A stretch of 64,000 bases of DNA. Source: Pseudomonas fluvialis. GTDB lineage: Bacteria; Pseudomonadota; Gammaproteobacteria; Pseudomonadales; Pseudomonadaceae. The position numbers were made by a program, and so were the translations under genes. The notes under the pieces are model-generated. The model was not told the DNA's origin and made no database searches. It worked only from the letters and a program-made list of their open reading frames with translations. Below, piece by piece: positions 25,151-62,469 of the stretch. The first letter of the stretch is position 1. Every line of letters begins with the position of its first letter. The stretch covers positions 62,001-126,000 of the forward strand of contig NZ_JACHLL010000005.1 in the NCBI RefSeq assembly GCF_014207935.1, given 5' to 3'.

Positions 25151-25156
25151 CCAGCC

Positions 25157-27824: not shown

Positions 27825-28664
27825 TCAGACTCCCGGAACGTAATGCTGCTCACCCGCAGCCACCAGCAGATTCAGCTGACCGGTGTGACGACTTAACCAA
27901 TCACCATCGACGCCACCTTGCGCACGCAAGTAGCGCAGCAGGTAATAACTGCCCAGGCGTTCGGCACAGAACGCCCAGATCCGAGCCTGAATATCGTCAC
28001 GCCGGGTGTCGTGGAGTTGCACGCAACGCCGCACAACCGCTTCGACCGCCGTGATGTGTGGCAACCAGAAGTCGACAGGAAAAACGCCTAGCTCGATGCC
28101 GCCAGGGAAGAAGATCTTCTCGTCGAAGAAGGCCATGACTTCCTGTTTGCTCAGAGCCCCTACCTCCACGGCGGCAGCGGTGAAGCGCAGAAAGTCCTCA
28201 ATGTAGTGAACATCCTTGTACTGGTAGAGGTAGCCGTGGTTTTCCCCATTAAGGGTGAACTGCCCTGGCTTCCCGATCAGGAAGTCAGAGGCCTTCGGCA
28301 GCATCAGGTCCGCCAGATCAAAGCGCTCGACCTCCGCGCTGGAGAGCACATCCATGACCTGGTAATTCTCTGCAGGTGTCCCAATGCGTTCGCGGCTAAG
28401 AAACTTGCGGTACTGGCAGATCCCCACGTAACGCACATCACGCTGCTGCTGTTGCAGCAGGTTCTTGAGGGCAAACGCACCGGCCATGGAACCCAATACA
28501 GGGTGATAGGGCTCCCACTCCGGCGCCAGGTCACGCAAGTTATGCCGCCCCTCCCCCTGGGCATCACCCATATAAATCGCGGCAACATAGGGCGGATAGT
28601 CAACCTGCAGTGGCACATGGGTCAGGCAGGCATACAGCAGATTGTCCGGGGCGCAGAGTGACAT
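27825..28664 (-). CDS. DUF4422-like putative glycosyltransferase
   Basis: The 279-residue protein resembles DUF4422 proteins of polysaccharide loci: VRYVGICQYRKFLS near the start, FFPGGIELGVFPVDFWLPH, and RLGSYYLLRYL towards the end. These are thought to be glycosyltransferases. I chose the ATG at 28664, with AAGGA nine bases upstream; an in-frame ATG at 28727 would add 21 residues and overlap the preceding gene by 29 bases. It is 34 bases after the GT41 gene, and both follow the giant repeat-protein gene, so it may extend or modify the sugar placed by GT41. The family assignment is by pattern only. Confidence 0.6.
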   Translation of the reverse strand: MSLCAPDNLLYACLTHVPLQVDYPPYVAAIYMGDAQGEGRHNLRDLAPEWEPYHPVLGSMAGAFALKNLLQQQQRDVRYVGICQYRKFLSRERIGTPAENYQVMDVLSSAEVERFDLADLMLPKASDFLIGKPGQFTLNGENHGYLYQYKDVHYIEDFLRFTAAAVEVGALSKQEVMAFFDEKIFFPGGIELGVFPVDFWLPHITAVEAVVRRCVQLHDTRRDDIQARIWAFCAERLGSYYLLRYLRAQGGVDGDWLSRHTGQLNLLVAAGEQHYVPGV

Positions 28665-28698
28665 CAACAAGCATCCTTGGTCAGCAATAGCAGGTATT

Positions 28699-30537
28699 TC
28701 AGGCTTTGTTGAGACGTGCATAGGCACGGCTCAGGCCAGCTTCGAAGCTGCGCACAAAACTAGGCATGTCAAACAGCAGGGAGTTTTCCCGGCCATGTTT
28801 CAGGCGCTGTCGCAGCCCGCCAAGCTGTTGCTTGTCCTTAGCCAACTCGACAGCACGCTGTTCGTATTCGCTCAGGGAGCGGGTAATCAGCTCGGGTAAA
28901 TCCAGGGCGGTGAGCAGGCTGCCAGCCATGCGCGAAGCGAAGGTTCGTCCCGAGCGAGTCAACACCGGCAACCCCATCCACAACGCATCATTGGCGGTCG
29001 TGCCGCCATTGAAAGGGTAAGCATCAAGAAACAGGTCGGCTACCGTGTAACGCGCCAGGTAGAGTTCGGGCGCCACTCTGGGTGCAAAGATCAGTCGCTC
29101 GCGGGCCACGCCCAGCGACTCCGCCCTGGCGCAGAGGTTGGCTTGAGACCACTGATTGTCAGCCAGCAGCCAGAACACGCTACCTGGCACTTGCTGAAGA
29201 ATGCGCATCCAGCAGTCGAACTGCTCCTCATTGAACTTGTAGTTATTGTTGAAACAGCAGAAAACAAAGCGATCCTCCGGCAAGCCACACTCTGCACGGC
29301 TTGGCAGCGCGGCAACCGGGCGCTGACGATCACTGCACTGAAAAACCGGCAAGTACAGTGGACGCTCGCTGTAGAAGGGTTTTTCGCTATCCGGAATCAG
29401 GTATTCGTCTGCAATCACATAATCCACACAGGGCAACCCTGTCGGCCCGGGGAACCCCAGGTAGGTTACCTGCACCGGTGCCGGCCTGAATGCAAGGATG
29501 TTCGGCCGTGCTCCCGACGTCAGCCCCTGCAAATCGACCAGCACATCGATTTCCTGCTGACGGATCAGTTGGGCAGCCTCAGCATCATCCAGCGCGCCAA
29601 TCGGGATGAAGTAGTCCATCGCCGACTTGACTCTGGCCCGCAGTGCCGAACCATCCTCTCGGCTCCAGCAGAAGCCATAGACCTCGAATGCCTGGCGATC
29701 GAGCAGCTCAAAAAGCTCCACCGTCAGCAATGAGACCGCGTGCAAGCAGAAGTCCGAGGATAGAAAGCCAATGCGCAGGCGTTCATGCTGGTAACCACTA
29801 CGCGGAGCCAGCTCGGCCACCCGCTGGTTAACCCTCTCACTGACAAAGCGCTGGGCAGTGGCCAGCTGCAAGCCGGGATCATCGGTCGCCGACAGCATCG
29901 CCAACGGCGAAGTTGCCTTGAGCATCTCACCCAGCGAAAGCTGTTCCAGCTCAGTGAATACGGGCCACTCACACTGCTTTTGGCGCAGGTGCACCCAGTG
30001 CTGAATGACCTTCGGCTGCTCCGGGTCTGCCTGCAGACTGGCCAACAGCTTGGCCTCGGCACTATTCAGTTGGCGGGTCTCTTCCATCAGGCGGCCCATG
30101 CTGTTGAGCACCATCAGGTACAGCTCCCGATTAAGCTCGGGGCCCACCAACGGATGATCAAGCATGGACTGCCAGATGATCAGCGCATTGTCCGCACGGC
30201 CCTGCCGCTCAATCACGGCGCCGAGATTGAACCAGGCCTGAACAAAATCCGGCTTACTCTGGATAGCCGACCGGTAAGCCTGCTCTGCCGCTGGCAGCTG
30301 TTCGAGCTGCGATAACGTCACACCAAGATTGAACTGCACGATGTAATCAGCCGTCGAGCGACAATGCGCCAACCAGCTTTGATACAAACGCACTACATCC
30401 GTATGCCGCCGCACAGTGCCCAACCGCTCTGCCACCGCAATCAGCTGCATCGGCTCCAGGCTTGCCTGCTCGGACAACTGCAGGGCATTGAGAAAAGCGG
30501 TATCAAGATTTACAGATAGAACTGAGCTTTCCGGCAT
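28699..30537 (-). CDS. TPR/OGT-like (GT41) protein glycosyltransferase
   Basis: The 612-residue protein has TPR helices in the N-terminal part (about residues 30-190) and a GT41 catalytic region (about 245-600). Landmarks of O-GlcNAc transferases are present: RIGFLSSDFCLHAVSLL (His in the catalytic position), VDLQGLTSGARPNILAFRPA, VTYLGFPGPTGLPCVDYVIAD, CCFNNNYKFN (Lys for nucleotide-sugar binding) and DAYPFNGGTTANDALWMG. GT41 enzymes transfer a single hexose or GlcNAc to Ser/Thr, or to Asn in the HMW1C branch, in the cytoplasm. The gene follows the giant Thr/Ser-rich protein by 87 bases, which suggests that protein as substrate. There is no signal peptide. Confidence 0.9.
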   Translation of the reverse strand: MPESSVLSVNLDTAFLNALQLSEQASLEPMQLIAVAERLGTVRRHTDVVRLYQSWLAHCRSTADYIVQFNLGVTLSQLEQLPAAEQAYRSAIQSKPDFVQAWFNLGAVIERQGRADNALIIWQSMLDHPLVGPELNRELYLMVLNSMGRLMEETRQLNSAEAKLLASLQADPEQPKVIQHWVHLRQKQCEWPVFTELEQLSLGEMLKATSPLAMLSATDDPGLQLATAQRFVSERVNQRVAELAPRSGYQHERLRIGFLSSDFCLHAVSLLTVELFELLDRQAFEVYGFCWSREDGSALRARVKSAMDYFIPIGALDDAEAAQLIRQQEIDVLVDLQGLTSGARPNILAFRPAPVQVTYLGFPGPTGLPCVDYVIADEYLIPDSEKPFYSERPLYLPVFQCSDRQRPVAALPSRAECGLPEDRFVFCCFNNNYKFNEEQFDCWMRILQQVPGSVFWLLADNQWSQANLCARAESLGVARERLIFAPRVAPELYLARYTVADLFLDAYPFNGGTTANDALWMGLPVLTRSGRTFASRMAGSLLTALDLPELITRSLSEYEQRAVELAKDKQQLGGLRQRLKHGRENSLLFDMPSFVRSFEAGLSRAYARLNKA

Positions 30538-30577
30538 GCAAACGCCTTAATCGGGCAATCCATTTCCATACACAGAC

Positions 30578-30613
30578 AGTTCCAGGCCGCCCGAAAGAGG
30601 CGAACCTGGAACT
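30578..30613 (-). terminator. Hairpin between the giant gene and the GT41 gene
   Basis: AGTTCCAGG (30578-30586) pairs perfectly with CCTGGAACT (30605-30613), with an additional inner CGCC/GGCG pairing. It begins 11 bases after the stop codon of the giant gene. There is no T-run on either side, so it may be an RNA-stability element or partial terminator that lowers the downstream gene's expression. Confidence 0.5.
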
Positions 30614-30624
30614 ACTGCCACTGG

Positions 30625-33600
30625 TTATGAATAGAAGCTGGTATTCACGTTGCTTGCAACCAGCAACTGGATCTCTCCATCGTTGTAGACGTTGTAGTCC
30701 GTGCCATCGACCTGCACGCTGCCAGCAGCCTGCCATTCGCCGGCCGGGTCGTTGATCACCACACTGTCATGGGCATCACCATTGATCAGCATCTGCACCG
30801 GCGCCGAGGCGCCCAGCGCGGTCTCGACCAAGCCAACCTGCCCAAACTGACTGATGCTCTGGGCATCGAGTGTAAGGGTGGTTGACTTACCAGCATCGCC
30901 AGCCAGGTTGATCTGACTGAGGCTGTTGGCACTGACCAGGTCCGGGTTAACTGCCGTGAGATCGATGCTCATCCCCTCACTACCGCCATTGCGGAACCAG
31001 GCATCAACGATGCTGTGCAGTTCACCATCAACGGTTTCGTAGCTGGAGGTCAGTCCAATCCAGTTGCCGTTGTTTACCTGAGAGGTCTGCTCAGCCGCCA
31101 GATTGATACTGGTGATACCCAGAGCGGACAGGTTGTACAGCTCACCAGCCTGGCTCACACCATCCTGGTTGCCATCAACCCACACACGCAGTGCCGCAAA
31201 CTCGGTGTCGGCGGAACTGATGCGCCCATCCTGATTGCTATCAAGCTGAGCCAGTGCCGCAAAACCATCTTCGGCATGACCGCCATCGGTGAGGCTGGTG
31301 GCATTACCGAACAGCTCGCCGCCATCATTGATCAGCCCATCGCCGTTACGATCCAGCGCCAGCAGGCCATCGCCCTCACCGACCCAGCCAACATTATCCA
31401 GATCGCCATCGGCATCTATGTCGAAGTGGGTATTGGCGGCCCAATGCAGGGTCTGCACGCCGTCACCGTTGAGGTCCAGCACCAGCGGCGAGGTATTGAG
31501 CACCGCCAATTGCTCGGTACTCATGGCTGCCAACTGGTCAGGCGTGAAGGCATCGGCCTGGGTCATGCTCAGGGCCTGCAACTGGTCGGTCGTCAGCGCC
31601 GGCACATCGGCCACATCGATCGCCACCAGTTGAGCCGTGTTGAACAGGGCAAAATCGCTCGCCTGCAACGCGGCAACCTGGGCCGAGGTCAGCGCCGAGA
31701 CATCCGCAGTCTCCAGCGCCTGCACCTGAACCGAGGTCAGTGCGATGATCTGGTCGGTCGTCAGCGCCTTCACCTGCGAGGTGGTCAGGGCAACGATATG
31801 TGCGGTGGTCAGCGCCGCAACCTGATCGCTGGTCAGTACCGCCAGGTCGACGTTCTGCATCGCCTGGATCTGCTCGGTGGTCAGAGCCGCCACATCACGG
31901 GTTTCCAGTGCCTGCACCTGAACGGTGGTCAGACCGGAGACCTGAGAGGTGGTCAGGGCACGAACCTGCTCGGTGGTCAGCGCGACAATCTGCGCAGTGC
32001 CCATGACGGCCAGATCGGAGATCTGGATGGCCGCCACCTGTGCGGTGGTCAGTGCCGCCACGTCCGCAGTTTCCAGCGCCGCGACCTGGGTCGAGGTGAG
32101 CGCCACGACCTGAGACGTCGTCAACGCCGCCGCCTGTGCCGTGGTCAGCGCGACGATCTGCGCAGTGTCCAACGACTGCAGATCAGAAGCCTGGATGGCT
32201 GCAATCTGCGCCGTCGTCAGCGCGGCCAGATCCTGGGTCTGCATCACGGAGAACTGCTCGGTCGTCAGCGAAACAATCTGCGCCGTGGTCAGCGCCGCCG
32301 CCTGTTCGGTCGTCAGCGCAACGATCTGTGCCGTGGTCAGCGCCGCAATATCGGCACCCTGCATCGCGGATACCTGCAGCGTGGTCAGGTCCTGGATCTG
32401 ATCGGTGGTCAGTGCAGCGACCTGCTCGGTCGTCAGGGCCTGGATCTGTGCCGTGGTCAGCGCCGGCAGCTGATCGCTGGTCAGCTCCACCAACTGCGCC
32501 GTGCTCAGCAGGGCAATGTCACTGGCATCCAGTGCAGCGATCTGCTCGGTTTTGAAGGCCACCAGATCACGGGTTTCCAGCGCCTGCACCTGAGCACTGG
32601 TCAGGGCCTGAATCTGTGCGGTACTCAAGGCACGGAACTGATCGCTGGTCATCACCTCGATCTGCGCGGTGGTCAGCGCAGCAACATCGCGGGTCTCCAT
32701 CACGGCCAGCTTGGCGGTGGCCAGGTTGGCAATCTGCGTGGTACTCAGGGCCGCCACCTGGCCGGTAGTCATACCGACAATCGCGGCGGAACTGAGGGCA
32801 TTGAGGTCGTCCGTTTCCAACTTGCTGATCTGCGCAGTAGTCAACGCAGCGACCTGGCTGGCACTGAGCGCCGCCGCCTGTGCCGTGGTCAGGGCAACGA
32901 TCTGGTCACTGGTCAGGTTGGCCATGTCGGCAGTCTGCAGCACCGCAACCTGCGCCGTGCTGAGCAGCGCGAAATCGGCTACCTGCATCGCTGCCACCTG
33001 AGTGCTGGTCAACGCGACGATCTGATCTGTGGTCAGTGCCTGGACCTGATCCGAGGTCAGCGCCACCACCTGCGCGGTGGTCAGGGCCTCGATCGCAGCG
33101 GTCTTGAGAGCCACCAGCTGCTCGGTCTCGAGTGCTGCCACTTGCTCAGTGGTCAGCGCCGCTGCCTGCTCGACAGTTACGCCCTGCAGGGCCTGGGTGG
33201 TCAGCAGGACCAGATCCTCGGTCTCCAGAGCGCGGATCTGTGCAGTCGTCAGCGCAGCCACCTGGGCCGAGCTGAGCACAGGTACCTGATCAGTCGTCAG
33301 CGCGACAATCTGCGCGGTGGTCAGCTCGGCCACATCACGGGTCTGCAGCGCGGCGATCTGCGCGGTACCCAGCTGCACCAGATCGGCGGTCTCGATAGCC
33401 TTCACCTGCTCGGTGGTCAACGCGACAATCTGCGCGGTGGTCAGTGCCTTGACCTGGGCAGTGGTCAGCCCGGCGATCTGTGCGGTGCCCATCACGGCAA
33501 TGTCGCGGGTTTCCAGCGCGGCAATCTGCGCGGTGCTGAGTACTGCCAGATCAGCGACCTGGATGGCCGCGACCTGCTCAGTGGTTAGCGCAACGATCTG

Positions 33601-36600
33601 TGCGGTGGTCAGCGCCTGGGCCTGGGCAGTCGTCAGGGCAACGATCTGCGCAGTGGTCAGACCTGACAGATCCGGCGTCTGGATCTGACGGATCTGCACG
33701 GTGGTCAGCGCAGCGAAGTCCTCCGTCTCCATGGCCGCCAGCTGTGGCTTGGTCAGCGCCTGAATCTGCTCCCCAGTGAGAACGCGAACCTGATCAGTGC
33801 TCAACGCCACGATCTGATCGGTGGTCAGCGCCGTGATGTCGACCGCCTCCAGACCGGCCACCTGATCGGTGGTCAGTGCCGCAATATCGGCGGTCTCCAA
33901 GGCAGCAACCTGACTCTGCGTCAGCGCCTGAAGCTGGTCGACACTCAGCGCACGTACCTGAGCAGTGCTCAGCGCCTGAATCTGCGCCGTCGTGAAGGCC
34001 GCCACCTGCGACAACTGCAGTCCGGCGATCTGGGCCGAGGTCAGCAAGGCCAGATCACCTGTTTCCAGGGCGCGAATCTGTGCGGTGCTGAGGAAACCGA
34101 TCTGGTCGGCGGTAATGGCGCCGATCTGTGCCGTGGTCAGCAGCGGAATTACGGTAGTCGACAGTGCGGCCAGATCCTGACCCTCCATCGCCGCGATCTG
34201 TGCCGTCGTCAGGTTCACCACCTGGGCAGTGGTCAGCGCCGCGGCCTGGGCGGTCGACAGCAACTGCACCTGATCGACGGTCAGCGCCGCGACATCCGTG
34301 GTTTCCATCGCCACAATCTGCGCCGTGGTCAGTGCCCCGATCTGCTCCAGCGTCAGAGCGCGGGTCTGCTCGGTCGTCAGAGCCACCAGTTGCTCGGCGC
34401 TGAGATTCTGGATGTTCGCCGTTCCCAGAGCCGCGACCTGCACACCCGACAGCTTGCTGAACTGGGCGGTGGAGAGCGCTGCGGTCTGCACGGTGGTCAA
34501 CGAAGACACCTGCTCCTCAGTCAAGGCAGCAATATCGGCGGTAGCCATGGCCGTGATCTGGCTGGTAGTCAGCTTGGTCAGCTGAGCCACCGTCAGGGCC
34601 GCAAAACGGTCCGGAGTCAGCGCCACGATCTGCTCGGTGGTCAAGGCCACCAGTTGGGCGGTGGTCAACGCCGGAACCTGCGCCACGTTGATCGCCGCCA
34701 CATCGGCGGTTTCCAAGGCACGTATCTGTGCCGTGGTCAGCGCAGCCAACTGTGTATTGGTCAGAGAGACGATCTGCTGGGTGGTCAACGCGGCAATCTG
34801 CGCAGTGGAGAGCGCCTGCAGATCGGCCAGTTCGATGGCGGCAATCTGGTCAGCAGTCAGCACGGCCAGATCAGCCAGCTCCATGTTGCGGAACTGCGCG
34901 GTGGTCAGCGCAGCGATCTGTTCGGCGCTGAGCGCAGCAGCCTGCTCAGTGGTGAGTCCCTGAACCTGTGCATTGGTCAGCGCCTCGACCTGAGCCGTAC
35001 TCAGAGCAGCCAGCTGAGGCAACTTGAGCGCTGCCACGTCGGCGGTTTCCAGCGCCCGCACCTGGGAGGTGCTCAGAGCGGCCAGTTGGCCAGCCGTGAG
35101 GGCGCCAACCTGCTCGGTAGTCAGAGCAATCAGCTGCACGTTGCTCAGGGCGGCGACGTCCGCAGTCTCCAGCGCCGCCACCTGGCGGGTAGTGAGACCG
35201 GCGACTTGTGCTGTGGTCAGCGCGACCAGCTGCTCGGTACTCAAAGCGACTATCTGCGCGGTGGTCAGCGCAGCCAGATCGGCGATTTCCAGCGCCCGTA
35301 CCTGAGCGGTGGTGAGCGCCGCGATCTGAGCGGTGGTGAGCGCGGCAGCAGCAGCCGTGCTGAGGGCATCGACCAGATCGGCACCCGCTGCAGCAATGGT
35401 ACCGGCATCCAGGGCCGCCACCTGGCTCGGGTTGAGAGCCGCCAGCTGGGCACTGCCGAGGGCCGCTACCTGAGCGGAGTCCAGCACGGCCAATTGCTCG
35501 GCCGACAGTGCAGCCACATCGGCCGCTTCGAGGGCTGCCACCTGCACACTGGTCAGGGCCGCGACTTGCTCGGTGAGCAGGTTAGCCATCTGGTTGGTGG
35601 TCAGGCTCGGAATGGCCGCCACGGCAATGGCGGCAATGTCTGCGGTTTCCAGGCTGATGATCTGATCCGCACTGAGCGCAGCTAGCTGGGTGCCCGTGAG
35701 GGCCGCCACCTGCTCGGTACTCAGCGCCGCCAGTTGGGCCGAGGTCAGCACAGCCACGTCGGCGTTCTGCAGCGCAGCAATCTGCGCGGTAGTCAGCGCC
35801 GCGACCTGGCCACCCGAAAGCTGCTCAACCTGAGCGGTGGTCAGCGCTATCACCTGAGCGGTGGTGAGTGCTGCGATCTGGGCCGTACCAAGCGCCGCGA
35901 TCTGATCACTGGTCAGCAAGGCCAAATCAGCCGTTTCGATAGCGCGTATCTGGGTGCTGCTCAGCACTGCCAGATCCGCGGTTTCCAGCGCGACTATCTG
36001 AGAGGTACTCAGCGCCGCAATCTGCGCCGTGGTAAGAGCCTGAGCCTGGGCGGTCGTCAGAGCCGCCAGTTGCTCGGCGCTGAACTGGGCCAGGTCGGCG
36101 AGTTCCAGAGCACGCAGTTGCGTGCTGGTCAGCGCAGCGATCTGGGCACCACTCAGGGCCTGCACCTGAGCGGTGCTCAGGGCGACTATCTGCGCCGTGG
36201 TCAGTGCCGCCAGGTCATCTGTCTGCAGAGCGCTGACCTGAGCATTGCCGAGCGCAGCCACCTGAGCGGTGGTCAGCGCTGCCGCTTGCTCGGTGGTCAA
36301 TGCCGACAGCTGGCCGGCCGTCAGCACCTGAACATCGGCCAATTCCAGTACACGAATCTGGGCAGTGGTCAGCGCAGCAAAGTCCGCAGTCTCAAGCGCC
36401 TGCACCTGGGCGGTGGTCAGCGCCACCACCTGATCGGTGGTCAGCGCAGCAGCCTGGGTCGGGCTCAGAGCACGCACCTGTAGCGTGGTCAGGGCCTGCA
36501 GATCAGCGGTCTCGATCACTCGCAGTTGCGCGGTAGTCAGGGCTGCAATCTGCTCGGCACTCAGTGCACGCAGCTGGGCACTGCTCAGGGAGATTACCTG

Positions 36601-42600: not shown

Positions 42601-45600
42601 CGCCGTGGTCAGCGCTCGCACATCGGCGGTCTCCAGGGCAGCGATCTGAGCGGTATTGAGGATGCTCAGCTGCTCGGTGCTCAGAGCAACGACCTGCGCG
42701 GTAGTCAGTGCGGCGATCTGCGCAGTACCAAGGCCAGCCAGATCGTCGGCCTCCAACGCAGCAACCTGGGCAGTGCTGAGTATCGCTACCTGAGTGGTAC
42801 TCAGTGCCGCGACCTGCTGCGCGGTCAGAGCCTGCACCTGCTCGGTGGTCAGAGCAGCAACCAGCGCCGTGCTCAACCCGCGGATGGCCGCGGTGCTGAA
42901 CAACTGCAGGTCGCCAGGCTCGAGCACAGCGAATTGCTCGGTGGTAAGGCCAGCCAGCTGGGTGCTGGTGAGCGCCACCACCTGTTCGTTGGTCAGGGCC
43001 TGGATCTGCGCGGTCGTCAGGGCACGGAAGTCCTGACTCTCAAGGGCGCGGATCTGTACCGTGGAGAGAGCCTGCACCTGATCGGTGGTCAACGCAGCCG
43101 CCTGCTCGGTAGTCAGCGCGGCAATGCTTGCTGTAGACAGCACGGCCAGGTCTTCCAGCTCGATTGCCGGTACCTGAGCCGAGGTGAGCTTGGCAAACTG
43201 GGCCGTGGTCAGCGCGGCGGCCTGCTCGGTGGTGAGGGCAGCTACCTGCTCCAGACTCAGGGCCTGAAGGTCAGCACTTTCGAGCGCGCGCACCTGGGCA
43301 CTGGTCAGCGCCTGCAATTGGTCGGTGGTCAGCGCGGCGACCTGAGTGCTGGTCAGCGCAATCACTTGCACGGTCGTCAGCGAGCGCAACTGGTCACTGC
43401 TCAGCGCCGCCACCTGCTGGGCGGACAGCACGGCGAGGTCCGTGGTTTCCAGGGCACGCAACTGCACGGTAGTCAGCGCGGCGACCTGTTCGCTGCTCAA
43501 AGCGGCCACCTGAGCAGTGGTCAGCGCGACCACCTGGGCGGTGCCCAGGGCACGCAGGTCGGCAGTCTCGATGGCGGCGATCTGCTCGACTGTCAGCTTG
43601 TTCAACTGGGCGGTGCCGAGCGCGGCCACCTGGGCGCTGGTCAAGGCAGCCACCTGGGCGGTGGAGAACGCCTGCAACTGGGCACTGTCCAGCGCAGCCA
43701 GGCCGGAAGTAATCAGTTGCGCCAGATCGGCGGTTTCCAACGAGGCCAGTTGAGAAGTGGTCAGAGCCACTATCTGAGTCGAGCTCAGGGCGGCGGCCTG
43801 ATCAGTGGTCAGCGCACCCACCTGTTCCTCATTGAGTACCCGCACCTGCTCGGTACTCAGGGCACGAATACCTGCAGTCCCAAGGGCCTGCAGGTCTTCA
43901 GTCTGCAAAGAGGGCAGCTGGGCGGTGGAGATACCGGCGATCTGCGCGGTGGTCAGGGCCGCCACCTGGGCGGATGTCAGGGCGATCAGTTGCTCGTTGC
44001 TCAGCGCACGCAGATCGGCAGTTTCCAGAGCACGGATCTGTGCGGTCGACAGTGCAGCCAGTTGGGCGGTGGTCAGCTCGGCGATCTGGCTGGAAGACAG
44101 CGCACGGATGGCAGCGGTACTCAACTGCGCCAGGTCGGCCAACTCCAGAGCGGCTACCTGCTCTGCGGTCAGGGCGGCGACCTGAGTAGTGGACAGTGCC
44201 GCCACCTGGGCGGTGGTCAGGCCGGCGATCTGCTCGGTGCTCAGCGATGCCAGGTCGGCGGTTTCCAGCGCTACGATCTGCGCGGTGGTCAACGCAGCAA
44301 TCTGGCTGGTACTCAGCACACCCAACTGCACATTGTTGAGGCTGACAATGGCAGCCGTACTAAGGGCTGCCAGGTCGTTGTTTTCCAACGCAGCGATCTG
44401 CGTAGTAGTCAGTTTGCTGACCTGTTCAGTGCTCAACGCGGCCACCTGCGCGGTGGTCAGAGCCTGGATCTGCGCAGTACTGAGCTGACGCAGATCGGTA
44501 GTTTCCAGGGCGCGTATCTGCACCGTGGTAAGCGCCGCCACTTGTGCGGTACTCATGGCCTGGATGTGTGCAGTACTCAGCGCCTGCACATCGGCAGTTT
44601 CCAGAGCCACGATCTGGGCTGTGGTCAGTGCCCTGATCTGCGCCGTGGTCATAGCCTTGATGTCGTCGGTTTCCAGCGCTCGAATCTGTGCGGTAGAAAG
44701 CGCAGCAATATCGACGGTCTCCAGCGCGGCTACCTGCCGGCTGGTCAACCCGGTCACCTGAGCCGCGCTCAACGCCTGAACCTGGGCAGTGCTCAGCGCA
44801 GCCAACTGGTCTGAGCTGAACTGTGCTAGATCAGCAGTTTCCAGTGCGGCGATCTGCGTCGTGGTCAAGGCAACGACCTGCTCCGTGCCCAATCCCTTGA
44901 CTTGATCAGTGGTCAACGCCCGTAACTGGGCAGTGGTCAATGCACGAGTCTGAGCAGTAGTCAGGGCATCCACTTGCACGCTGGTCAGTGCCACGATCTG
45001 CGCGGCATTCAGGCTAGTGATTGCATTGGTGGCAATGGCCGCCAGATCAGCCGTCTGCAGCGCTCGCACCTGGGCGGTCGTCAGACTCGCCACCTGTGCG
45101 GAAGTCAGCACCGCCGCCTGGGCAGTTCCCAGAGCCACGATTTGCGCAGTGGTCATGGCCTTGAGATCACCCGTCTCAACGGCCTGAACCTGATCAGTCG
45201 TCAGCGCTGCAACCTGCGCAGTGGTCAGTGCCGCCACCTGAGCAGTGGTCAGGCCACGCACTGCGGCGGTATCCAGTGCCCGCAGGTCTAGGGTTTCAAT
45301 GGCCCGAACCTGTGCCGAACTCATGACTGCAATCTGTGTCGAGCTCAACGCGGCAGTATGGGCAGTGGTCCAGGCGGCAATCTGCGCCGTGGTCAACGCC
45401 TGCATCTGCGCGGTGGTCAACGATCCCACCTGACGGGCAATCTGCTGCGAAGCGCTCAATGGGTCATTCAGCGCAGCAATTTGTGCAGTACTCAAGGCGA
45501 CCATCTGCGGGATGGTCAGGGCGGCGACCTGCGCCGAGGTCAGCGCCTGCATCTGCGCGGTAGTCAGCGCCTGGATGTCGGTGGTTTCAATGGCCTGGAT

Positions 45601-48600
45601 CTGGCGGGTCGTCAGGTCGTCAATCTGCGTGGCCAGGATGCTGGCAATTTGCACACTGCTCATGGCTGCAATGGCCGAACTGGCCAGGGCGGAAAGATCG
45701 CCGACCTCCAGCTTCTGCACCTGGGCAGTGGTCAGAGCCGCCACCTGGGCATTGCTCAGGGCAGCCGCCTGGGCAGTGGTCAGAGCCACGATTTGTGCCG
45801 TGGTCAGACTGGCCACCTGCGCCGCCGTCAGCCCCTTGATCGCCGCTGTGGTCAGCGCCGCCAGATCAGCCACTTCAAGTTTCTGCAGCTGCGCAGTAGT
45901 CAGGCCGGCCAGCTGCGCGGAGGTAAGCGCCTTGGCCTGGGCGGTAGTCAGGGCGACCACCTGGGCAGTTGTCAGTCCCTTGATGTCCGCCGCCTCGATG
46001 GCGGCCACCTGGGCGGTACTGAGCGCCACCAACTGGGCGGTGGTCAACGCACCGATCTGCGCTGAGGAGAATGCCCGGATGTCATCGGTGGCGAGAGCAG
46101 GCAGGTCGGCGACCTGAATTGCCGCCACCTGGGCAGTGGTCAGTCCCGCAACCTGAGTCGGCGTCAGCGCGCCGATCTGTGCCGAATCGAGCAAGACAAT
46201 ATCGGCCGTGGTCAGCGCAGCCAGATCAGCCACTTCCAGCTTGCTCAGCTGTGCCGTGGTCAGCGCAGCTACCTGAGCATCGGTCAGCGCCACCACCTGA
46301 GCGGTGGTCAGGCCGGTAATTGCCGAAGTCGCAATCGCGGCGATATCGACTTCCTGCATCGCAGCGATCTGCGCGGTGGTCAAGGCTCCGACCTGAGTGG
46401 CCGTGAGTGCCGCCGCCTGAGCGGTGGTCAGCGCCTGCAACTGGCCATTGGTCAAACTCTGCAGCTGCGTTGCAGTCAGTCCGCGAATCGCAGCGGTACT
46501 CAGAACAGCAATATCCGCCACCTCAATGGCAGCAACCTGACTGGTGCTAAGGGCCGCAAGTTGAGTGGCAGTCAGGGAGACCACCTGGGCGGTAGTCAGC
46601 GCGGCAATCTGCGCCGTGGTCAGCTTGGCAAAGTCAGCCGGCTCCATGGCGGCCAACTGCGCGGAGGTCAGCGCCGCAATCTGCTGATTGGTCAGAGCCA
46701 CAACTTGAGCAGTGGTCAGGCCGGGAATGGTCGTGGACTTGATGGCCGCGAAATCAGCGACTTCCAGGGCAGAAATATTGGCGGTGCTGATCGCTGCCAG
46801 TTGGGTAGCGGTCAGGGCGGCGGCCTGTTCGGTGGTCAGAGCCACCAGTTGAGCAGTGGTCAGGGCATTGATCTGGGCGGTAGTCATGCCGGCAATGACA
46901 CTGCTGGCCAGTGCCGGAATATCCGCAGCATCAATCGCGACGATCTGGGCGGTACTCAAACCTGCCACCTGGGATACCGTCAACGCACCGACCTGCGCAG
47001 AACTCAGAGCGGTCAGCTGGCCGGCGGTCAGAGCCTTCACATCCACCGCTTCGAGCTTGGCAATCTGTGCGGTGGTGAACGCCTGTACCTGAGCATTGCT
47101 CAGTGCCGCGATCTGCACGGTGGTAAAACCTGGCACTGCAGCAGTCGACAGCAAGGCGATATCGGCCGCATCGATGGCAGCCACTTGTTCGGTACTCATG
47201 GCCCCGATCTGGTTAGCCTTCAGCGCCTGGACCTGCAGGGTGGTCAGCGCAGTCACCTGAGCGGCACTCAGCGCCGAAATCTGTGCAGTACTGAGGTTGG
47301 CAATGGCCGCCGTGCTCAGGGCCGGCATGTCGCCATTCTCAATCGCCGCAATTTGCGCCGTGGTCATGCCTCCAACTTGAGAGGCAGTCAGTGCGCCAAC
47401 CTGGGCGGAAGACAAGGCCAGCACATGTGCCGTGGTCAAGGCCTGAACATCAGCCACATCGAGCTTGGCAACCTGAGCCGTACTCAACGCCTGCACCTGA
47501 GCGTCACTGAGGGCGACGATCTGTGCCGTCGTAAAGCCCGTGATAGCGGCAGTCGACAGCGCAGTGACATCGGCAGCTTGCAGGGCAACAATTTGCGCAG
47601 TGGACAGCGCGGCCAACTGGACGGCGCTCAGCGTACCGACCTGCTCGGTGGTCAGAGCCACCACTTGAGCCGTGGTCAAGGCCGCCATCTGGGCAGTACT
47701 GAGGCTGACGATGGCGGCAGTCGACAAGCCAGGCAGATCAGCCGCCTCAATAGCGCGCAGTTGCGCTGTGCCAAGCCCGGCAACCTGAGCGGCCGTCAAT
47801 GCGCCAACCTGAGCTGAACTCATGGCCACGAGCTGAGCGGTACCCAACGCCTGGATATCGGCAACATCCATTGCCGCAACCTGGGCACTGCCCAAGGCGG
47901 CGATCTGAGCGGTGGTCAGATTGGCCACCTGCGCAGTGGTAAGGGCTTTGATGACGACAGCGTCAAGAGACGCCAGATCAGCCGTTTCCAGCGCAGCAAT
48001 TTGCTCCGTGCTGAGTTTGGAAATTTGCGCCGAGGTCAGCTCGGCCGCCTGCGCAGTGGTCAACGCAACCAGCTGTGCAGTCGTCAGCGCCACGGTCTGT
48101 GTCGTCGACAAGGCCGCAATGATGCTCGGATCCAGAGCAGGGATGTCGCCCACATCAATCGCCTGCACCTGCGCGGTGGTCAGCCCCTTGATCTGCTCGC
48201 TGTCTAGCACGGCGATCTGAGCAGAACTCAAGGCAGCAATCTGGGCAGTCCCCAGGGCTCCAAGATCTGCCGACTCCAGATTCTGCAGCTGAGCAGTGGT
48301 CAAGGCCGCGGCCTGGGCAGTGGTCAAGGCCGCAGCCTGGGCGGTAGTCAGACTGGCAATGACGCCCGTCGCCAAGCTGGCCAGATCACGTGTTTCCAGA
48401 GCCTGTACCTGAGCAGTGGTCAAGGCCTTGACCTGGGCACTGGTGAGTGCCGCCGCCTGTTCGGTGGTCAGACCGACCACTTGCGCTGTCGTCAGGGCGG
48501 CGACATCCCGGCTTTCCAGTGCACGAATCTGACTACTGCTCAGCTCGACCAAGTCCTGAACTTCAAGAGCTGCAACCTGCTGAGTGGTCATGGCGACCAG

Positions 48601-49428
48601 CTGAGCCGTACTCAACATGGCCATCTGCGCAGTGGTCAGTGCAGCAATTTGCGCAGTGGTCAAGGCAGCAAAATCAGCAATCTCCATCGCCGCCAGCTGA
48701 GCACTGGTGAGTGCTGCAAGCGCATCCACATCCAGGGCCGCCGCCTGAGCCGTGGTCAAGGAAACAATCTGCGCCGTTGTCAGCGCAGCAGCCTGGGCTG
48801 TGGTCAGCGCTCCAATCTGTGCCGTAGAAAACTTGCTGAAGTCGGCAGTAGGAATCACAACCAATTGCGCCGTTGTCAGTGCAGCAATATCGGCGGTTTC
48901 CATGGCCACCAGCTGTGCAGTTCCAAGCGCAAAGACCTGAGCAGTGCCGAGAGCGGCGACCTGAGCCGTAGTCAGCGCCTGGATCTGCGCCGTGGTGAGG
49001 GCTGCCACGTCAGCCGTTTGCAGGGCTTGAATCTGCGCGATAGTGAGATCGTCAATCTCGGCCGCATCAATCGCCTGAATCTGCGCGGTAGTCAGCGCCA
49101 CGACCTGTGCAGTGGTCAGGGCTGCAACCTGGGTTGCCGTCAGGGCCTGGATTTGCCCAGTGCTCAAGGCCGCGAAATCCGCCGTTTCGAAAGCACGCAC
49201 CTGAGCGGTGGAGAGCACAGCGAGATCTTCGGTTTCGATGGCTCGCACCTGGGTGCTGCTCAGTGCAGCGATGCTGCCGGTACTGAATGCCTCGAACTGC
49301 GCAGTGGTCAGCGCCACCATCTGCGCCGTGCTAATACCTGCAACATCTTCGGTGGTCATCCCCGCAATATCTGCGGTTGCCAGCGCCTGAACCTGATCCG
49401 TGGTCAAACCATCGAAGATGCTGCTCAT
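30625..49428 (-). CDS. Giant octapeptide-repeat secreted protein (6267 aa)
   Basis: The frame is open for 18.8 kb. From residue 5 onward, the protein is a near-unbroken series of octads of type [I/V]-x-A-L-T-T-A-Q, with Leu/Ile at position 4, Ser/Thr at 5-6 and Gln or Asp at 8. Every five to eight octads an acidic variant (LETAD) occurs. There is no signal peptide, no cysteine seen and almost no aromatic residue. The last ~295 residues form a different domain with at least five Ca2+-loop motifs (DLNGDGV, DADGDLD, DRNGDGL, DSNQDGR, DGNQDGV) and a hydrophobic end (IQLLVASNVNTSFYS), as in T1SS substrates. The ATG has AGG about 9 bases upstream. I infer a surface or released fibre exported by the T1SS at 23426-27819 and glycosylated by the downstream genes. 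I do not recognise a named family for the repeats. Confidence 0.9.
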   Translation of the reverse strand: MSSIFDGLTTDQVQALATADIAGMTTEDVAGISTAQMVALTTAQFEAFSTGSIAALSSTQVRAIETEDLAVLSTAQVRAFETADFAALSTGQIQALTATQVAALTTAQVVALTTAQIQAIDAAEIDDLTIAQIQALQTADVAALTTAQIQALTTAQVAALGTAQVFALGTAQLVAMETADIAALTTAQLVVIPTADFSKFSTAQIGALTTAQAAALTTAQIVSLTTAQAAALDVDALAALTSAQLAAMEIADFAALTTAQIAALTTAQMAMLSTAQLVAMTTQQVAALEVQDLVELSSSQIRALESRDVAALTTAQVVGLTTEQAAALTSAQVKALTTAQVQALETRDLASLATGVIASLTTAQAAALTTAQAAALTTAQLQNLESADLGALGTAQIAALSSAQIAVLDSEQIKGLTTAQVQAIDVGDIPALDPSIIAALSTTQTVALTTAQLVALTTAQAAELTSAQISKLSTEQIAALETADLASLDAVVIKALTTAQVANLTTAQIAALGSAQVAAMDVADIQALGTAQLVAMSSAQVGALTAAQVAGLGTAQLRAIEAADLPGLSTAAIVSLSTAQMAALTTAQVVALTTEQVGTLSAVQLAALSTAQIVALQAADVTALSTAAITGFTTAQIVALSDAQVQALSTAQVAKLDVADVQALTTAHVLALSSAQVGALTASQVGGMTTAQIAAIENGDMPALSTAAIANLSTAQISALSAAQVTALTTLQVQALKANQIGAMSTEQVAAIDAADIALLSTAAVPGFTTVQIAALSNAQVQAFTTAQIAKLEAVDVKALTAGQLTALSSAQVGALTVSQVAGLSTAQIVAIDAADIPALASSVIAGMTTAQINALTTAQLVALTTEQAAALTATQLAAISTANISALEVADFAAIKSTTIPGLTTAQVVALTNQQIAALTSAQLAAMEPADFAKLTTAQIAALTTAQVVSLTATQLAALSTSQVAAIEVADIAVLSTAAIRGLTATQLQSLTNGQLQALTTAQAAALTATQVGALTTAQIAAMQEVDIAAIATSAITGLTTAQVVALTDAQVAALTTAQLSKLEVADLAALTTADIVLLDSAQIGALTPTQVAGLTTAQVAAIQVADLPALATDDIRAFSSAQIGALTTAQLVALSTAQVAAIEAADIKGLTTAQVVALTTAQAKALTSAQLAGLTTAQLQKLEVADLAALTTAAIKGLTAAQVASLTTAQIVALTTAQAAALSNAQVAALTTAQVQKLEVGDLSALASSAIAAMSSVQIASILATQIDDLTTRQIQAIETTDIQALTTAQMQALTSAQVAALTIPQMVALSTAQIAALNDPLSASQQIARQVGSLTTAQMQALTTAQIAAWTTAHTAALSSTQIAVMSSAQVRAIETLDLRALDTAAVRGLTTAQVAALTTAQVAALTTDQVQAVETGDLKAMTTAQIVALGTAQAAVLTSAQVASLTTAQVRALQTADLAAIATNAITSLNAAQIVALTSVQVDALTTAQTRALTTAQLRALTTDQVKGLGTEQVVALTTTQIAALETADLAQFSSDQLAALSTAQVQALSAAQVTGLTSRQVAALETVDIAALSTAQIRALETDDIKAMTTAQIRALTTAQIVALETADVQALSTAHIQAMSTAQVAALTTVQIRALETTDLRQLSTAQIQALTTAQVAALSTEQVSKLTTTQIAALENNDLAALSTAAIVSLNNVQLGVLSTSQIAALTTAQIVALETADLASLSTEQIAGLTTAQVAALSTTQVAALTAEQVAALELADLAQLSTAAIRALSSSQIAELTTAQLAALSTAQIRALETADLRALSNEQLIALTSAQVAALTTAQIAGISTAQLPSLQTEDLQALGTAGIRALSTEQVRVLNEEQVGALTTDQAAALSSTQIVALTTSQLASLETADLAQLITSGLAALDSAQLQAFSTAQVAALTSAQVAALGTAQLNKLTVEQIAAIETADLRALGTAQVVALTTAQVAALSSEQVAALTTVQLRALETTDLAVLSAQQVAALSSDQLRSLTTVQVIALTSTQVAALTTDQLQALTSAQVRALESADLQALSLEQVAALTTEQAAALTTAQFAKLTSAQVPAIELEDLAVLSTASIAALTTEQAAALTTDQVQALSTVQIRALESQDFRALTTAQIQALTNEQVVALTSTQLAGLTTEQFAVLEPGDLQLFSTAAIRGLSTALVAALTTEQVQALTAQQVAALSTTQVAILSTAQVAALEADDLAGLGTAQIAALTTAQVVALSTEQLSILNTAQIAALETADVRALTTAQIVALNEDQAVALTSAQLGALTTEQIAVLETNDLAALSTAAIRGLTTAQAAALTSAQIYALTEDQAAALTTAQIAGFSTAQIAGFEPADLAAIAPATIAGLSTAQVRALTSAQIAALTTAQIVAIETQDLAALTTEQIVALTLTQARALTSAQVAALTTAQIAAMEAVDVARLSTDSVPALTTAQMTALTAEQVAALTAAQIGVLETQDLRALSSAQIAALSSVQVAALTTEQIAALTTVQLGALDATDISALNNSQIAALTTAQIRELSIGQLAALSTTQLRALETADVAALTTAQLVTLSLAQVAALSTAQVAALTTEQVRALAIEQIAALSAAQVAAIETADIAALTTDQAVALSSVQVGALKTAQIEALTTHQLTSLDTVDIAVLSTAQIAALTTAHALALTLDQLAALSTAQVRALETVDVAALATNRIEALTTEQVEALSTQQIVALTTAQVRALTPEQIAALTTVQVRALATDDLAALRTSQIAALSSDQVGALSTAQVQALTTAQVAAIEAEDIVALASAQLQMLETADIAALSSAQVQALTTAQFTALSTEQIAALGSAQVAALQTQDLAALSTGQIRALDTIDIAALSTAQIAALGTAQVAALSTAQLAALSSAQLQALELADLQALTSVQIAALSTAQVAALTTAQVAALTSVQIAALETQDLVRLNSDQIAALTTEQIAALSTTQVAALTTAQIVALETADLVVLNSAQIAALSSAQLQALVSDQLAALTTLQVRAIETVDLATLTTAQLVALGSAQIAALSTSQVEALTTAQARALEIEDIGALSTAQVRALETADLVALSTAQIVALSTAQTAALSTAQVAALTTDQVAALQTQDLFALSTAQIVALTTAQVQALTTAQVAALGTAQVAALQTQDFASLTSDQIIALTTAQVQALSTSQIAALTTAQAASLQVADLQAFGTTQVLALETADLAALTTAQIAALTTAQVAALSSGQVRALTTEQAAALEEADLAVLSTAQVRQIETADLAALTSAQIAALTSEQFAALTTSQLVALTTSQMLAIETDDLQALSATQLRALETADIAALTSAQIVALTSTQVAGLNTVQIAALSTAQIRALETEDVAALTTAQIVALGSAQVVALSTAQLQALTSRQLRALETADLALLGTAQVAALTTEQVAALTTEQIAALTQTQVAALEIADVQVLTTAQIVALTTSQMQALTTAQIASLSSTQIAALETVDVAALSQEQVIALSGAQPTALTTAQIASLPTSQIASLQTDDLAALTTAQIAALTTAQVLALTQEQIPALTTAQIRALDTADVAVLSADQLTSLTTEQVAALTTDQVVALGTAQVAALELADVAALTTAQIRALETQDLRALTDEQIAALSSAQVAALTTVQVSSLTVGQVAALQTQDLVAMSAAQIAALTTAQVQNLSLVQVAALTTAQIRALEVADLAVLSAAQLDALTTAQVAALTTAQIQALTTAQVSALALVDLQALGTAQIEALETADVAALTTDQIAALTSVQVQALSAAQLQALTTAQVAALETVDLAALAPSQISQLETADIAALTAAQIVALTSAQVAALTTAQIAALTSEQIGALQTQDLQALSTAQVRAIEVADLAGLRTAQVVALTTEQVAALSTAQVAGLSTTQLAALETADVRALSTAQIVALTSAQLAALATEQLQALSTAQVRAIEVADLTALSATQLIKLTTAQIAALSTAQVAGLTTLQVEALSTAQIAALTTAQVAALESADVAVLTAAQVVALTTAQAAVLTSAQLAALSVDQVAALQVADLAAVSSAVISSLSASQIAALSTAQVAALTSDQVAALATEDLAVFSVEQIAALTTAQVAALSTAQLSKLTTDQVAALELADLGVLSTSQVAALTTAQVKALTQAQIAALSTAQVRALETADVAALTSDQIAALTSDQIAALGTAQIVALSTAQIVAVETVDIEHFTTAQLAALENADLAAFTVEQIAAFTGGQLSKLSTVQIAALTTAQVGAIETADLQALTNAQVISLSSAQLRALSAEQIAALTTAQLRVIETADLQALTTLQVRALSPTQAAALTTDQVVALTTAQVQALETADFAALTTAQIRVLELADVQVLTAGQLSALTTEQAAALTTAQVAALGNAQVSALQTDDLAALTTAQIVALSTAQVQALSGAQIAALTSTQLRALELADLAQFSAEQLAALTTAQAQALTTAQIAALSTSQIVALETADLAVLSSTQIRAIETADLALLTSDQIAALGTAQIAALTTAQVIALTTAQVEQLSGGQVAALTTAQIAALQNADVAVLTSAQLAALSTEQVAALTGTQLAALSADQIISLETADIAAIAVAAIPSLTTNQMANLLTEQVAALTSVQVAALEAADVAALSAEQLAVLDSAQVAALGSAQLAALNPSQVAALDAGTIAAAGADLVDALSTAAAAALTTAQIAALTTAQVRALEIADLAALTTAQIVALSTEQLVALTTAQVAGLTTRQVAALETADVAALSNVQLIALTTEQVGALTAGQLAALSTSQVRALETADVAALKLPQLAALSTAQVEALTNAQVQGLTTEQAAALSAEQIAALTTAQFRNMELADLAVLTADQIAAIELADLQALSTAQIAALTTQQIVSLTNTQLAALTTAQIRALETADVAAINVAQVPALTTAQLVALTTEQIVALTPDRFAALTVAQLTKLTTSQITAMATADIAALTEEQVSSLTTVQTAALSTAQFSKLSGVQVAALGTANIQNLSAEQLVALTTEQTRALTLEQIGALTTAQIVAMETTDVAALTVDQVQLLSTAQAAALTTAQVVNLTTAQIAAMEGQDLAALSTTVIPLLTTAQIGAITADQIGFLSTAQIRALETGDLALLTSAQIAGLQLSQVAAFTTAQIQALSTAQVRALSVDQLQALTQSQVAALETADIAALTTDQVAGLEAVDITALTTDQIVALSTDQVRVLTGEQIQALTKPQLAAMETEDFAALTTVQIRQIQTPDLSGLTTAQIVALTTAQAQALTTAQIVALTTEQVAAIQVADLAVLSTAQIAALETRDIAVMGTAQIAGLTTAQVKALTTAQIVALTTEQVKAIETADLVQLGTAQIAALQTRDVAELTTAQIVALTTDQVPVLSSAQVAALTTAQIRALETEDLVLLTTQALQGVTVEQAAALTTEQVAALETEQLVALKTAAIEALTTAQVVALTSDQVQALTTDQIVALTSTQVAAMQVADFALLSTAQVAVLQTADMANLTSDQIVALTTAQAAALSASQVAALTTAQISKLETDDLNALSSAAIVGMTTGQVAALSTTQIANLATAKLAVMETRDVAALTTAQIEVMTSDQFRALSTAQIQALTSAQVQALETRDLVAFKTEQIAALDASDIALLSTAQLVELTSDQLPALTTAQIQALTTEQVAALTTDQIQDLTTLQVSAMQGADIAALTTAQIVALTTEQAAALTTAQIVSLTTEQFSVMQTQDLAALTTAQIAAIQASDLQSLDTAQIVALTTAQAAALTTSQVVALTSTQVAALETADVAALTTAQVAAIQISDLAVMGTAQIVALTTEQVRALTTSQVSGLTTVQVQALETRDVAALTTEQIQAMQNVDLAVLTSDQVAALTTAHIVALTTSQVKALTTDQIIALTSVQVQALETADVSALTSAQVAALQASDFALFNTAQLVAIDVADVPALTTDQLQALSMTQADAFTPDQLAAMSTEQLAVLNTSPLVLDLNGDGVQTLHWAANTHFDIDADGDLDNVGWVGEGDGLLALDRNGDGLINDGGELFGNATSLTDGGHAEDGFAALAQLDSNQDGRISSADTEFAALRVWVDGNQDGVSQAGELYNLSALGITSINLAAEQTSQVNNGNWIGLTSSYETVDGELHSIVDAWFRNGGSEGMSIDLTAVNPDLVSANSLSQINLAGDAGKSTTLTLDAQSISQFGQVGLVETALGASAPVQMLINGDAHDSVVINDPAGEWQAAGSVQVDGTDYNVYNDGEIQLLVASNVNTSFYS
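31510..49416 (-). repeat. About 745 tandem 24-bp units (octapeptide repeats)
   Basis: The region divides into 24-base units throughout, about 17.9 kb. Codons vary freely (ctgaccaccgcccag, ttgacggtcgc and similar), while the encoded pattern is kept, so the protein pattern, not the DNA, is conserved. One irregular unit around 45423-45478 (NDPLSASQQIARQ) shifts the octad register by one residue; otherwise the register appears constant. Confidence 0.9.
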
Positions 49429-52917: not shown

Positions 52918-52935
52918 TTTCCAGGGGTTGGAGAA

Positions 52936-55344: not shown

Positions 55345-55354
55345 GGCCCACGCC

Positions 55355-56176
55355 ATGTACGAAGCATTCTACCGACTCGCGGAAAAACCCTTTTCCATCC
55401 AGCCCGACCCCGACTTCCTGTTCATGAGCAGGCGTCACGACATGGCCTACGCCATGCTCGAATACAGCCTGGCAAACAAGGCCGGATTCAGCGTGATCAG
55501 CGGCGAAATCGGCTGTGGCAAGACCACCCTGATCCGCAAGCTGCTCGACAATCTGGGCGATGAGGTACTGACCGGGCTGGTCAGCAACACCCACGCCGAC
55601 ATCGCCGATCTGCTCGAATGGGTCATGCTGGCCTTCGGGCAGCCCTATCAGGGGCTGTCCAAGGTCGCCCTGTACGATGCCTTCCAGCAATTCCTGGTCG
55701 CGCAATATGGCGCCGGCCGGCGCGTGCTACTGATCGTCGACGAAGCGCAGAACCTCAACCCCGGGGCACTGGAGTCACTGCGCATGCTGTCGAACATCAA
55801 TGCCGACAAGGATCAGTTGCTGCAGATCATCCTGGTCGGTCAACCCCAGCTGCGCGACCTGCTACGGCGCCCCGAGCTGCGTCAACTGGCCCAGCGAGTA
55901 GCGGCACACTTCTTCATTCCCCCGCTGGAAGAGTCTGAAGTGGCGCGCTACATCGAGCATCGCCTGGCCGTGGCCGGGCGCAGCGAAGCCCTGTTCACCC
56001 CGGAGGCCGTCACCCGCATCGCCCAGCTCAGTCGCGGCATCCCACGCAGCATCAACATTCTCTGCGATACCGTGCTGGTCTACGGCTACTCCGCCGAGCG
56101 TGAGCCTATCGATGCCGAGCTGATCGAGGAAGTCGTTTGCGACCAGGACGAGTTCGGCCTGTTCACGCGCGACTGA
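55355..56176 (+). CDS. Exosortase-associated AAA ATPase (ExeA-like)
   Basis: The 273-residue protein starts with MYEAFYRLAEKPFSIQPDP, typical of ExeA/GspA-like ATPases. Walker A is GEIGCGKTT (residues 50-58), Walker B is VLLIVDEAQNL (about 125-135), followed by sensor motifs (PRSINILCD). Members of this group regularly accompany exosortase and PrsT genes. It ends 22 bases before the stop of the converging polysaccharide operon. Confidence 0.93.
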   Translation: MYEAFYRLAEKPFSIQPDPDFLFMSRRHDMAYAMLEYSLANKAGFSVISGEIGCGKTTLIRKLLDNLGDEVLTGLVSNTHADIADLLEWVMLAFGQPYQGLSKVALYDAFQQFLVAQYGAGRRVLLIVDEAQNLNPGALESLRMLSNINADKDQLLQIILVGQPQLRDLLRRPELRQLAQRVAAHFFIPPLEESEVARYIEHRLAVAGRSEALFTPEAVTRIAQLSRGIPRSINILCDTVLVYGYSAEREPIDAELIEEVVCDQDEFGLFTRD

Positions 56177-59319: not shown

Positions 59320-59323
59320 GGAC

Positions 59324-62432: not shown

Positions 62433-62469
62433 GGCACGTCCACTACAGCTTCCATCCCCGGTAACAAGC

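Follow-up and report, generated by a model that had tools for sequence, protein, structure and literature searches.

A gene for a giant protein built of ALTTAQ octad repeats and a gene for a glycosyltransferase of family GT41 lie one after the other in Pseudomonas fluvialis, and this ALTTAQ-GT41 pairing is real: it recurs in bacteria far removed from P. fluvialis. We propose that the two genes, with a type I secretion system (T1SS), form a dedicated make-modify-export module, in which the octad solenoid is O-glycosylated in the cytoplasm and then exported by the T1SS, a reading that we hold to be likely.

Results

Layout of the locus

The window is a 64,000-nucleotide stretch of the P. fluvialis contig NZ_JACHLL010000005.1 (all coordinates below are those of the window). 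The gene for the ALTTAQ octad-repeat giant (6,267 aa; ORF call, Pfam PF20080) occupies 30625..49428 (-). Segmentation of the octads places the octad region (residues 8-5936) at 31621..49407 (-), while a domain resembling the FrpC-type self-processing module, recognized by sequence and fold similarity, is encoded at 31015..31488 (-). An 87-nt gap with a predicted RNA hairpin (30538..30624 (-); RNA folding, z -3.97) separates the giant gene from the gene of a 612-aa glycosyltransferase of the OGT type, consisting of TPRs and a GT41 domain (28699..30537 (-); PF13844 plus TPRs). The latter overlaps a third gene (27825..28727 (-); 300 aa), which is weakly DUF4422-like and encodes a candidate second, lineage-specific glycosyltransferase. 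Three genes on the opposite strand (23426-27819(+)) are convergent with the third gene and end 5 bases from its stop; they encode a PrtD-type ABC transporter (23426..25150 (+)), a HlyD-type adaptor (MFP; 25157..26494 (+)) and a TolC-type outer-membrane channel (OMP; 26491..27819 (+)), and score above the cut-offs of the NCBIfam/TIGR models TIGR01842, TIGR01843 and TIGR01844; the T1SS is complete. The sequence-only reading had placed and oriented the giant, the GT41 gene, the third gene and the convergent, complete T1SS with its 5-base gap correctly throughout.

Two other regions of the window are of note. At 3-15931 there is a second giant frame (3,586 aa inside the window, open at the window edge) with a 306-base tandem repeat, next to which lie a HlyD-type gene and two ABC genes (10791-15931). 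At 51367-63924, starting about 2 kb beyond the start of the giant gene, an XrtD-type exosortase gene is accompanied by genes for a TPR protein and polysaccharide glycosyltransferases.

The octad array

Compared with itself at spacings of up to 32 residues, the giant shows an identity of 0.41-0.42 at 8, 16, 24 and 32 and of 0.04-0.13 at all others. PF20080 (ALTTAQ_rpt) matches the N-terminal 367 aa in 15 tandem stretches (E 4e-98, 321 bits). Across the P. fluvialis genome at least 154 matches reach E 0.001 or better (150 of 240 candidates scored), and those listed all fall in the giant frame. The octads conform to the consensus L-[ST]-[ST]-A-Q-[VIL]-A-A. Dynamic-programming segmentation yields 722 octads, 531 of them distinct, and the commonest occurs 17 times, which implies an old, diversified array without recent expansion. 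The Thr codons are varied. The whole giant contains 1,296 Ser and Thr residues (895 T, 401 S), fewer than the roughly 1,500 that had been claimed for the repeats; 1,212 lie within octads, 1,064 of these at positions 2 and 3. Cys is absent from the giant, as are GGxGxD RTX nonapeptide repeats, and no Sec-type signal was seen, with hydrophobic stretches of at most 4 residues among the initial 40.

A 500-residue C-terminal model, built from 17 related C-termini and covering the last ~200 residues of the octad region, predicts a solenoid in which each octad forms one short helix of 4-7 residues (pLDDT 92-97 for the first 150 residues, at least 71 up to residue 210). In the model every helix begins with position 3, and position 2 immediately precedes it. 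The octad sequence matches the PDB chain HeliScrew4 (9zem; E 6e-17), presumably a designed protein, as judged from its name alone, on which no paper was found in a literature search that was thin in subscription journals. The octads of HeliScrew4 carry Ser or Thr at position 2 and mostly Pro at position 3 (printed alignment, read by eye). Fold matches of the octads to importin, armadillo and mesothelin (Z 5-7) were set aside, as they may reflect merely a common arrangement. Some octads (LETADLAA type) have Asp as their fifth residue; they most commonly recur at every fifth octad (81 of 152 spacings) and might trace a single face or a single turn of the solenoid.

The C-terminal FrpC-like module

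The "T1SS-like C-terminus" of the sequence-only reading took a more specific form on analysis, namely an FrpC-type self-processing-module fold with a tail of roughly 115-130 residues. The domain matches the FrpC self-processing module (6sjw) in sequence (E 3.5e-36 over 158 residues), and its model matches in fold (Foldseek E 2e-11; VIA Z 19.2, rmsd 3.4, 147 residues). The accessible passages on FrpC describe that Ca2+ binding breaks the Asp414-Pro415 bond (PMC7078468) and that FrpC-like modules are present in many RTX proteins exported by T1SS (PMC7078468, PMC3034196). The domain of the giant resembles the FrpC module in sequence and fold and differs at the scissile bond: Asp414-Pro415 corresponds to Ser-Pro in the giant, and in 50 related loci, all fitting a search pattern that demanded the Pro, the Asp414 site is Ser in 12, Thr in 38 and Asp in none. 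With Ser or Thr instead of Asp in 50 of 50 loci, the canonical Asp-Pro reaction is not expected in the giant, and the module of the octad proteins is apparently an uncut or differently reacting variant.

The GT41 enzyme and the third gene

PF13844 matches the GT41 enzyme with 264 bits (cut-off 25), with TPRs ahead of the catalytic domain. Its nearest solved relative is XcOGT from Xanthomonas (E 4.6e-96), followed by human OGT and SPINDLY; HMW1C structures match only at E about 1e-5, and the NCBIfam model of HMW1C (NF049992) gives 30.4 bits, far under its cut-off of 1000. His266 and Lys434 align with His218 and Lys388 of XcOGT (counted by hand on the printed alignment), which we take to be its catalytic residues. 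By sequence, the enzyme is thus of the OGT type, not of the HMW1C type. The giant has 12 N-x-S/T sequons in 6,267 aa. The parallel to HMW1/HMW1C that had been suggested therefore fails at the family level, and HMW1C-like N-glycosylation of the octads was discarded on the NF049992 score, the distance of the HMW1C structures and the 12 sequons.

A second GT41 gene of the P. fluvialis genome (locus L016, C2:222000-241000) is situated within 6 kb of a flagellin gene, near sugar-nucleotide genes; its product forms a separate long branch in a quick tree that raised long-branch warnings. In genome G159 (C92:27068-35410(-)) four GT41 matches fall in a single 3,781-aa frame, and about 8 kb separate it from an octad array.

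The third gene had been read as a DUF4422 gene and a part of the system. Its likeness to DUF4422 (PF14393) stands as a weak one, at 18.1 bits, and lies below the Pfam cut-off of 25; two of six members reach E 0.1. The structural model is poor (pLDDT 56), and its sole fold match under E 0.001 is the WbbM glycosyltransferase (E 3.9e-4). Five of 80 GT41 loci, all from close relatives within one clade, have a DUF4422-like gene, and in three loci another gene takes its place. The DUF4422-like gene is consequently not a conserved partner; we dropped it as a general core part and kept it as a lineage-specific extra.

Pairing of octad arrays and GT41 genes

A survey that started from the GT41 enzyme found 206 relatives, of which the best 80 were examined; the locus counts come from tblastn and motif scans, and ORFs picked by length misplaced the strand of some genes in G+C-rich loci. 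In 54 of the 80 loci, 21-470 nt separate the end of the array frame from a GT41 match that follows it in the same orientation. These back-to-back loci belong to Beta- and Gammaproteobacteria, Desulfuromonadia (Thermodesulfobacteriota) and one Holophagae MAG (Acidobacteriota). The other 26 comprise nine with an array within 10 kb, two cut by a contig edge and 15 without an array; since L038 and L073 among these 15 show the contig-cut C-terminus of an octad protein, 13 show none.

PF20080 at E 1e-12 proved too strict as a genome probe and was replaced by a profile, A1, at E 1e-15, 1e-18 or 1e-22. At E 1e-15, A1 detects arrays in 16 of 298 Pseudomonas genomes, which together with G425 make up 17 array-bearing genomes. 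In fifteen of the 17, a close GT41 (at least 69% identity) lies downstream of the array in the same orientation, at 1.0-2.2 kb from the nearest of the listed array matches. In G541 a GT41 of 39% identity lies directly downstream of the array, while G536, a 330-contig assembly in which the array runs off its contig, has only a distant GT41. Among 40 control genomes, taken as array-negative from their absence from the list of array positives, a close GT41 occurs in none and a distant one in one (G482). The contrast of 16 of 17 against 0 of 40 gives 3e-13 in Fisher's test, relatedness being ignored.

A distant order (that of G445) yielded nine positives among 249 genomes (profile A1, E 1e-22), eight with true arrays; the ninth, G247, is not an array. 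A GT41 at E 2e-120 or better is present in seven of these eight, as against 3 of 42 others, which were counted as array-negative on the same ground as the Pseudomonas controls; it lies directly downstream of the array in six and on another contig in one, where the array is contig-cut. Phylum-wide, 22 of 398 genomes and 6 of 212 genera are positive (profile A1, E 1e-18). Five positives belong neither to Pseudomonas nor to family f66; of these, G404 alone has a GT41 at E 1e-40, versus 5 of 40 other genomes, again taken as array-negative from their absence from the positives. The four positives without GT41 are G247 and G250, which we rejected as octad arrays (the motif matches number 3 and 4 over more than 3,300 aa), the true orphan G445, and G327, whose array status comes from profile A1 alone. 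The presence of a GT41 is uninformative in the order of G159, where 45 of 48 genomes possess one. The co-occurrence of octad arrays and GT41 genes, named by the sequence-only reading as the check on its proposal, is thus conserved far beyond P. fluvialis (54 of 80 loci, 16 of 17 Pseudomonas genomes, 7 of 8 genomes of the distant order).

Orphan arrays and Ser/Thr content

Orphan arrays without a neighbouring GT41 exist in G445 and as the second array of G404 (L168). Among 57 array-matching plasmid records, one of them a weak Spiroplasma match (25% identity) that may be no array, 26 contain a GT41 as well, whose distance to the best array match is 1.4-10.8 kb. The other 31, chiefly from rhizobia, do not figure among the GT41 records, of which 60 of 64 were listed; many records are near copies, and the use of an orphan array as query favours orphans. 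Most rhizobial arrays printed start with MTS-x-I/V, whether paired with GT41 (L184-L186) or not (L166, L188, L191-L193, L196, L197); a single branch may thus have lost or gained the GT41.

The Ser/Thr content was compared in 84 arrays, relatedness being ignored and octad segmentation varying between scripts, so that the fractions differ slightly. Position 3 is Ser or Thr at a median of 0.80 in arrays with a GT41 in the locus (n=70) and 0.55 in those without (n=14), with overlapping ranges (p 0.011); of the 14, L173 and L177 are contig-cut, and L168 was counted as unpaired, yet its genome holds GT41 genes elsewhere. Position 2 shows 0.68 with and 0.76 without GT41 (p 0.002), while total Ser/Thr per octad shows no difference (p 0.84). 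The lowest position-3 values belong to the orphans L168 and L166 (0.21 and 0.25), with 20-24% Pro there, and five arrays without GT41 in the stretch (L188, L192, L193, L194, L197) have 0.78-0.91. The enrichment at position 3 beside GT41 lends weak support, on composition, to glycosylation. Thr content as proof of glycosylation was abandoned: several orphan arrays are as Thr-rich as paired ones, hence Thr may serve the fold.

Exporters, sugar genes and the intergenic hairpin

A PrtD-type T1SS is convergent to the module, as in P. fluvialis, in 16 of the 20 best loci (L018-L037). Of the four without an adjacent T1SS, two are contigs of about 10 kb, and L034 and L037 lie on long contigs that show no PrtD-type T1SS in the 10 kb downstream. 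In most Burkholderiales loci no T1SS was seen in the stretch examined. Elsewhere the arrangement differs. In five loci of family f66 a HlyB-like ABC gene and an adaptor gene adjoin the array, with the GT41 gene beyond them on the opposite strand. In one record of a Cereibacter sphaeroides plasmid (L181) the HlyD, ABC and GT41 genes share one strand and the array gene lies on the other; public records annotate the C. sphaeroides octad protein as 'ICE nucleation protein' or 'heme utilization protein', and nothing was seen to back either. Locus L043 has, in one direction and mostly overlapping, the array end and genes for GT41, Sel1, ABC transporter, adaptor, OMP, hexapeptide transferase, FdtA, DegT aminotransferase and GT2. 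FdtA and DegT genes occur in 19 of the 80 GT41 loci, mostly from Duganella and relatives, and UDP-glucose dehydrogenase and epimerase genes are near the pair in three loci of the distant order. The exporter and sugar genes vary, while the array-GT41 pair stays.

The gap between array and GT41 genes folds into a stable RNA hairpin in all seven cases folded (P. fluvialis and six related), with differing sequences (z -1.4 to -7.5; the weakest equalled by 22 of 200 shuffles), and a U-run follows the hairpin in two gaps. The predicted hairpin is a possible attenuator or stabiliser of an mRNA 3' end, and could hold the enzyme below the level of its substrate.

Discussion

We propose the following course for the module. 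The giant would be made in the cytoplasm without a Sec signal, and the enzyme of the adjacent gene, TPRs and GT41 domain together, would add a sugar to many Ser/Thr residues at octad positions 2 and 3 of the still unfolded chain. A variable second enzyme, DUF4422-like in P. fluvialis and a GT2 or the product of another gene elsewhere, may extend or modify the glycan. T1SS substrates leave the cell C-terminus first, and the glycosylated chain would do so through the system encoded at 23426-27819. Outside, Ca2+ would fold the FrpC-like module, and the octads would coil into a long, glycan-displaying solenoid, presumably serving at the cell surface.

The GT41 enzyme could instead modify another target, such as flagellin, a surface polysaccharide or another envelope protein, and co-travel with the array in a cell-surface island. 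TPR glycosyltransferases that serve flagellins do exist, FlmG being the case described in the accessible part of PMC7591256; the second GT41 gene of P. fluvialis lies close to a flagellin gene and sugar-nucleotide genes, some GT41 relatives are near apparent flagellar genes with the array several kb off or absent, and the exosortase and polysaccharide genes begin about 2 kb from the giant gene. An island, however, would not need array and GT41 gene to adjoin in the same orientation, as they do in 54 of 80 loci while other neighbours vary; a close GT41 is lacking in all 40 Pseudomonas genomes taken as array-negative, and the flagellin-side GT41 of P. fluvialis belongs to its own branch; we regard this explanation as unlikely. 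It is likewise improbable, in our estimate, that the octad hydroxyls are mainly helix caps required by the fold and that the GT41 sugars a few sites or is above all a TPR chaperone keeping the giant export-competent. Such a role in the fold agrees with the modelled places of positions 2 and 3, with the Ser/Thr at position 2 of HeliScrew4 in the by-eye alignment and with Thr-rich orphan arrays, and the TPR domain ahead of the catalytic domain would suit a chaperone. However, the Pro that prevails at position 3 of HeliScrew4 and the two orphans with least Ser/Thr there imply that the fold does not demand the position-3 hydroxyls, and the catalytic residues of the enzyme are intact in the alignment, with sugar-nucleotide genes alongside it in other lineages.

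The module might also operate as proposed with the giant exported by another system, for instance that encoded at 10791-15931, or not exported at all, which we consider quite improbable. The HlyD-type and two ABC genes of the window, and the two long-contig loci without a PrtD-type T1SS downstream, leave room for it. Against it, the 10791-15931 genes have a giant neighbour of their own, a PrtD-type T1SS is convergent in 16 of the 20 best loci, and the FrpC-like module is described, in the accessible passages of PMC7078468 and PMC3034196, in many RTX proteins that T1SS export. The reading that we prefer remains glycosylation of the octads followed by export through the neighbouring T1SS.

XcOGT, with its aligned His and Lys, is the closest solved relative of the enzyme. 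Serine-rich repeat glycoproteins have long Ser/Thr repeats, which are glycosylated by dedicated cytoplasmic GtfA/GtfB and exported by an accessory Sec system. The proposed module resembles them in its Ser/Thr repeats and its dedicated enzyme and exporter; it differs in being Gram-negative and in its T1SS, its predicted solenoid and its GT41 enzyme. With HMW1/HMW1C it shares a giant exported protein and an adjacent cytoplasmic enzyme of the GT41 family. HMW1C, as described in the passages available, glycosylates Asn in sequons, and HMW1 is exported by two-partner secretion (PMC3012730, PMC2877744, PMC3983070), unlike the OGT-type enzyme, the sequon-poor giant and the T1SS of P. fluvialis. The nearest tested precedent is FlmG of Caulobacter, a TPR protein with a glycosyltransferase domain that, according to the accessible text of PMC7591256, O-glycosylates flagellins in the cytoplasm. 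The order of TPRs and GT-B domain is shared, as would be the cytoplasmic O-glycosylation of a protein exported later; in contrast to FlmG, the P. fluvialis enzyme would act on a giant octad solenoid that leaves through a T1SS, and the flagellin-side GT41 is a separate branch.

In the literature searched, which included few subscription journals, no function was found attached to PF20080, 'ALTTAQ' was absent, and the array-GT41-T1SS pairing was not found; a word search of the available text of a 2025 review of bacterial O-glycosylation (PMC12645811) did not return 'type I secretion'. Octads and GT41 are known families; what we rate as new is the substrate fold and the exporter in a dedicated cytoplasmic glycosylation-export system.

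To our knowledge, most bacterial OGT-like enzymes have no known substrate. The linkage of array and GT41 gives both families a partner and makes the question testable, for instance in the laboratory organism C. sphaeroides, where the pair is found on plasmids and, in one record, has T1SS genes as neighbours. That a large share of the bacterial OGT-like GT41 enzymes are dedicated partners of ALTTAQ solenoids, producing mucin-like, giant O-glycosylated fibres that are made in the cytoplasm and exported by T1SS in several phyla, with interchangeable exporters and glycan-building genes, is a generalization for which we see the chances as evenly balanced. If the proposed module is real, the known cytoplasmic glycosylation-export systems would gain a T1SS branch, and glycosylated protein fibres a new type.
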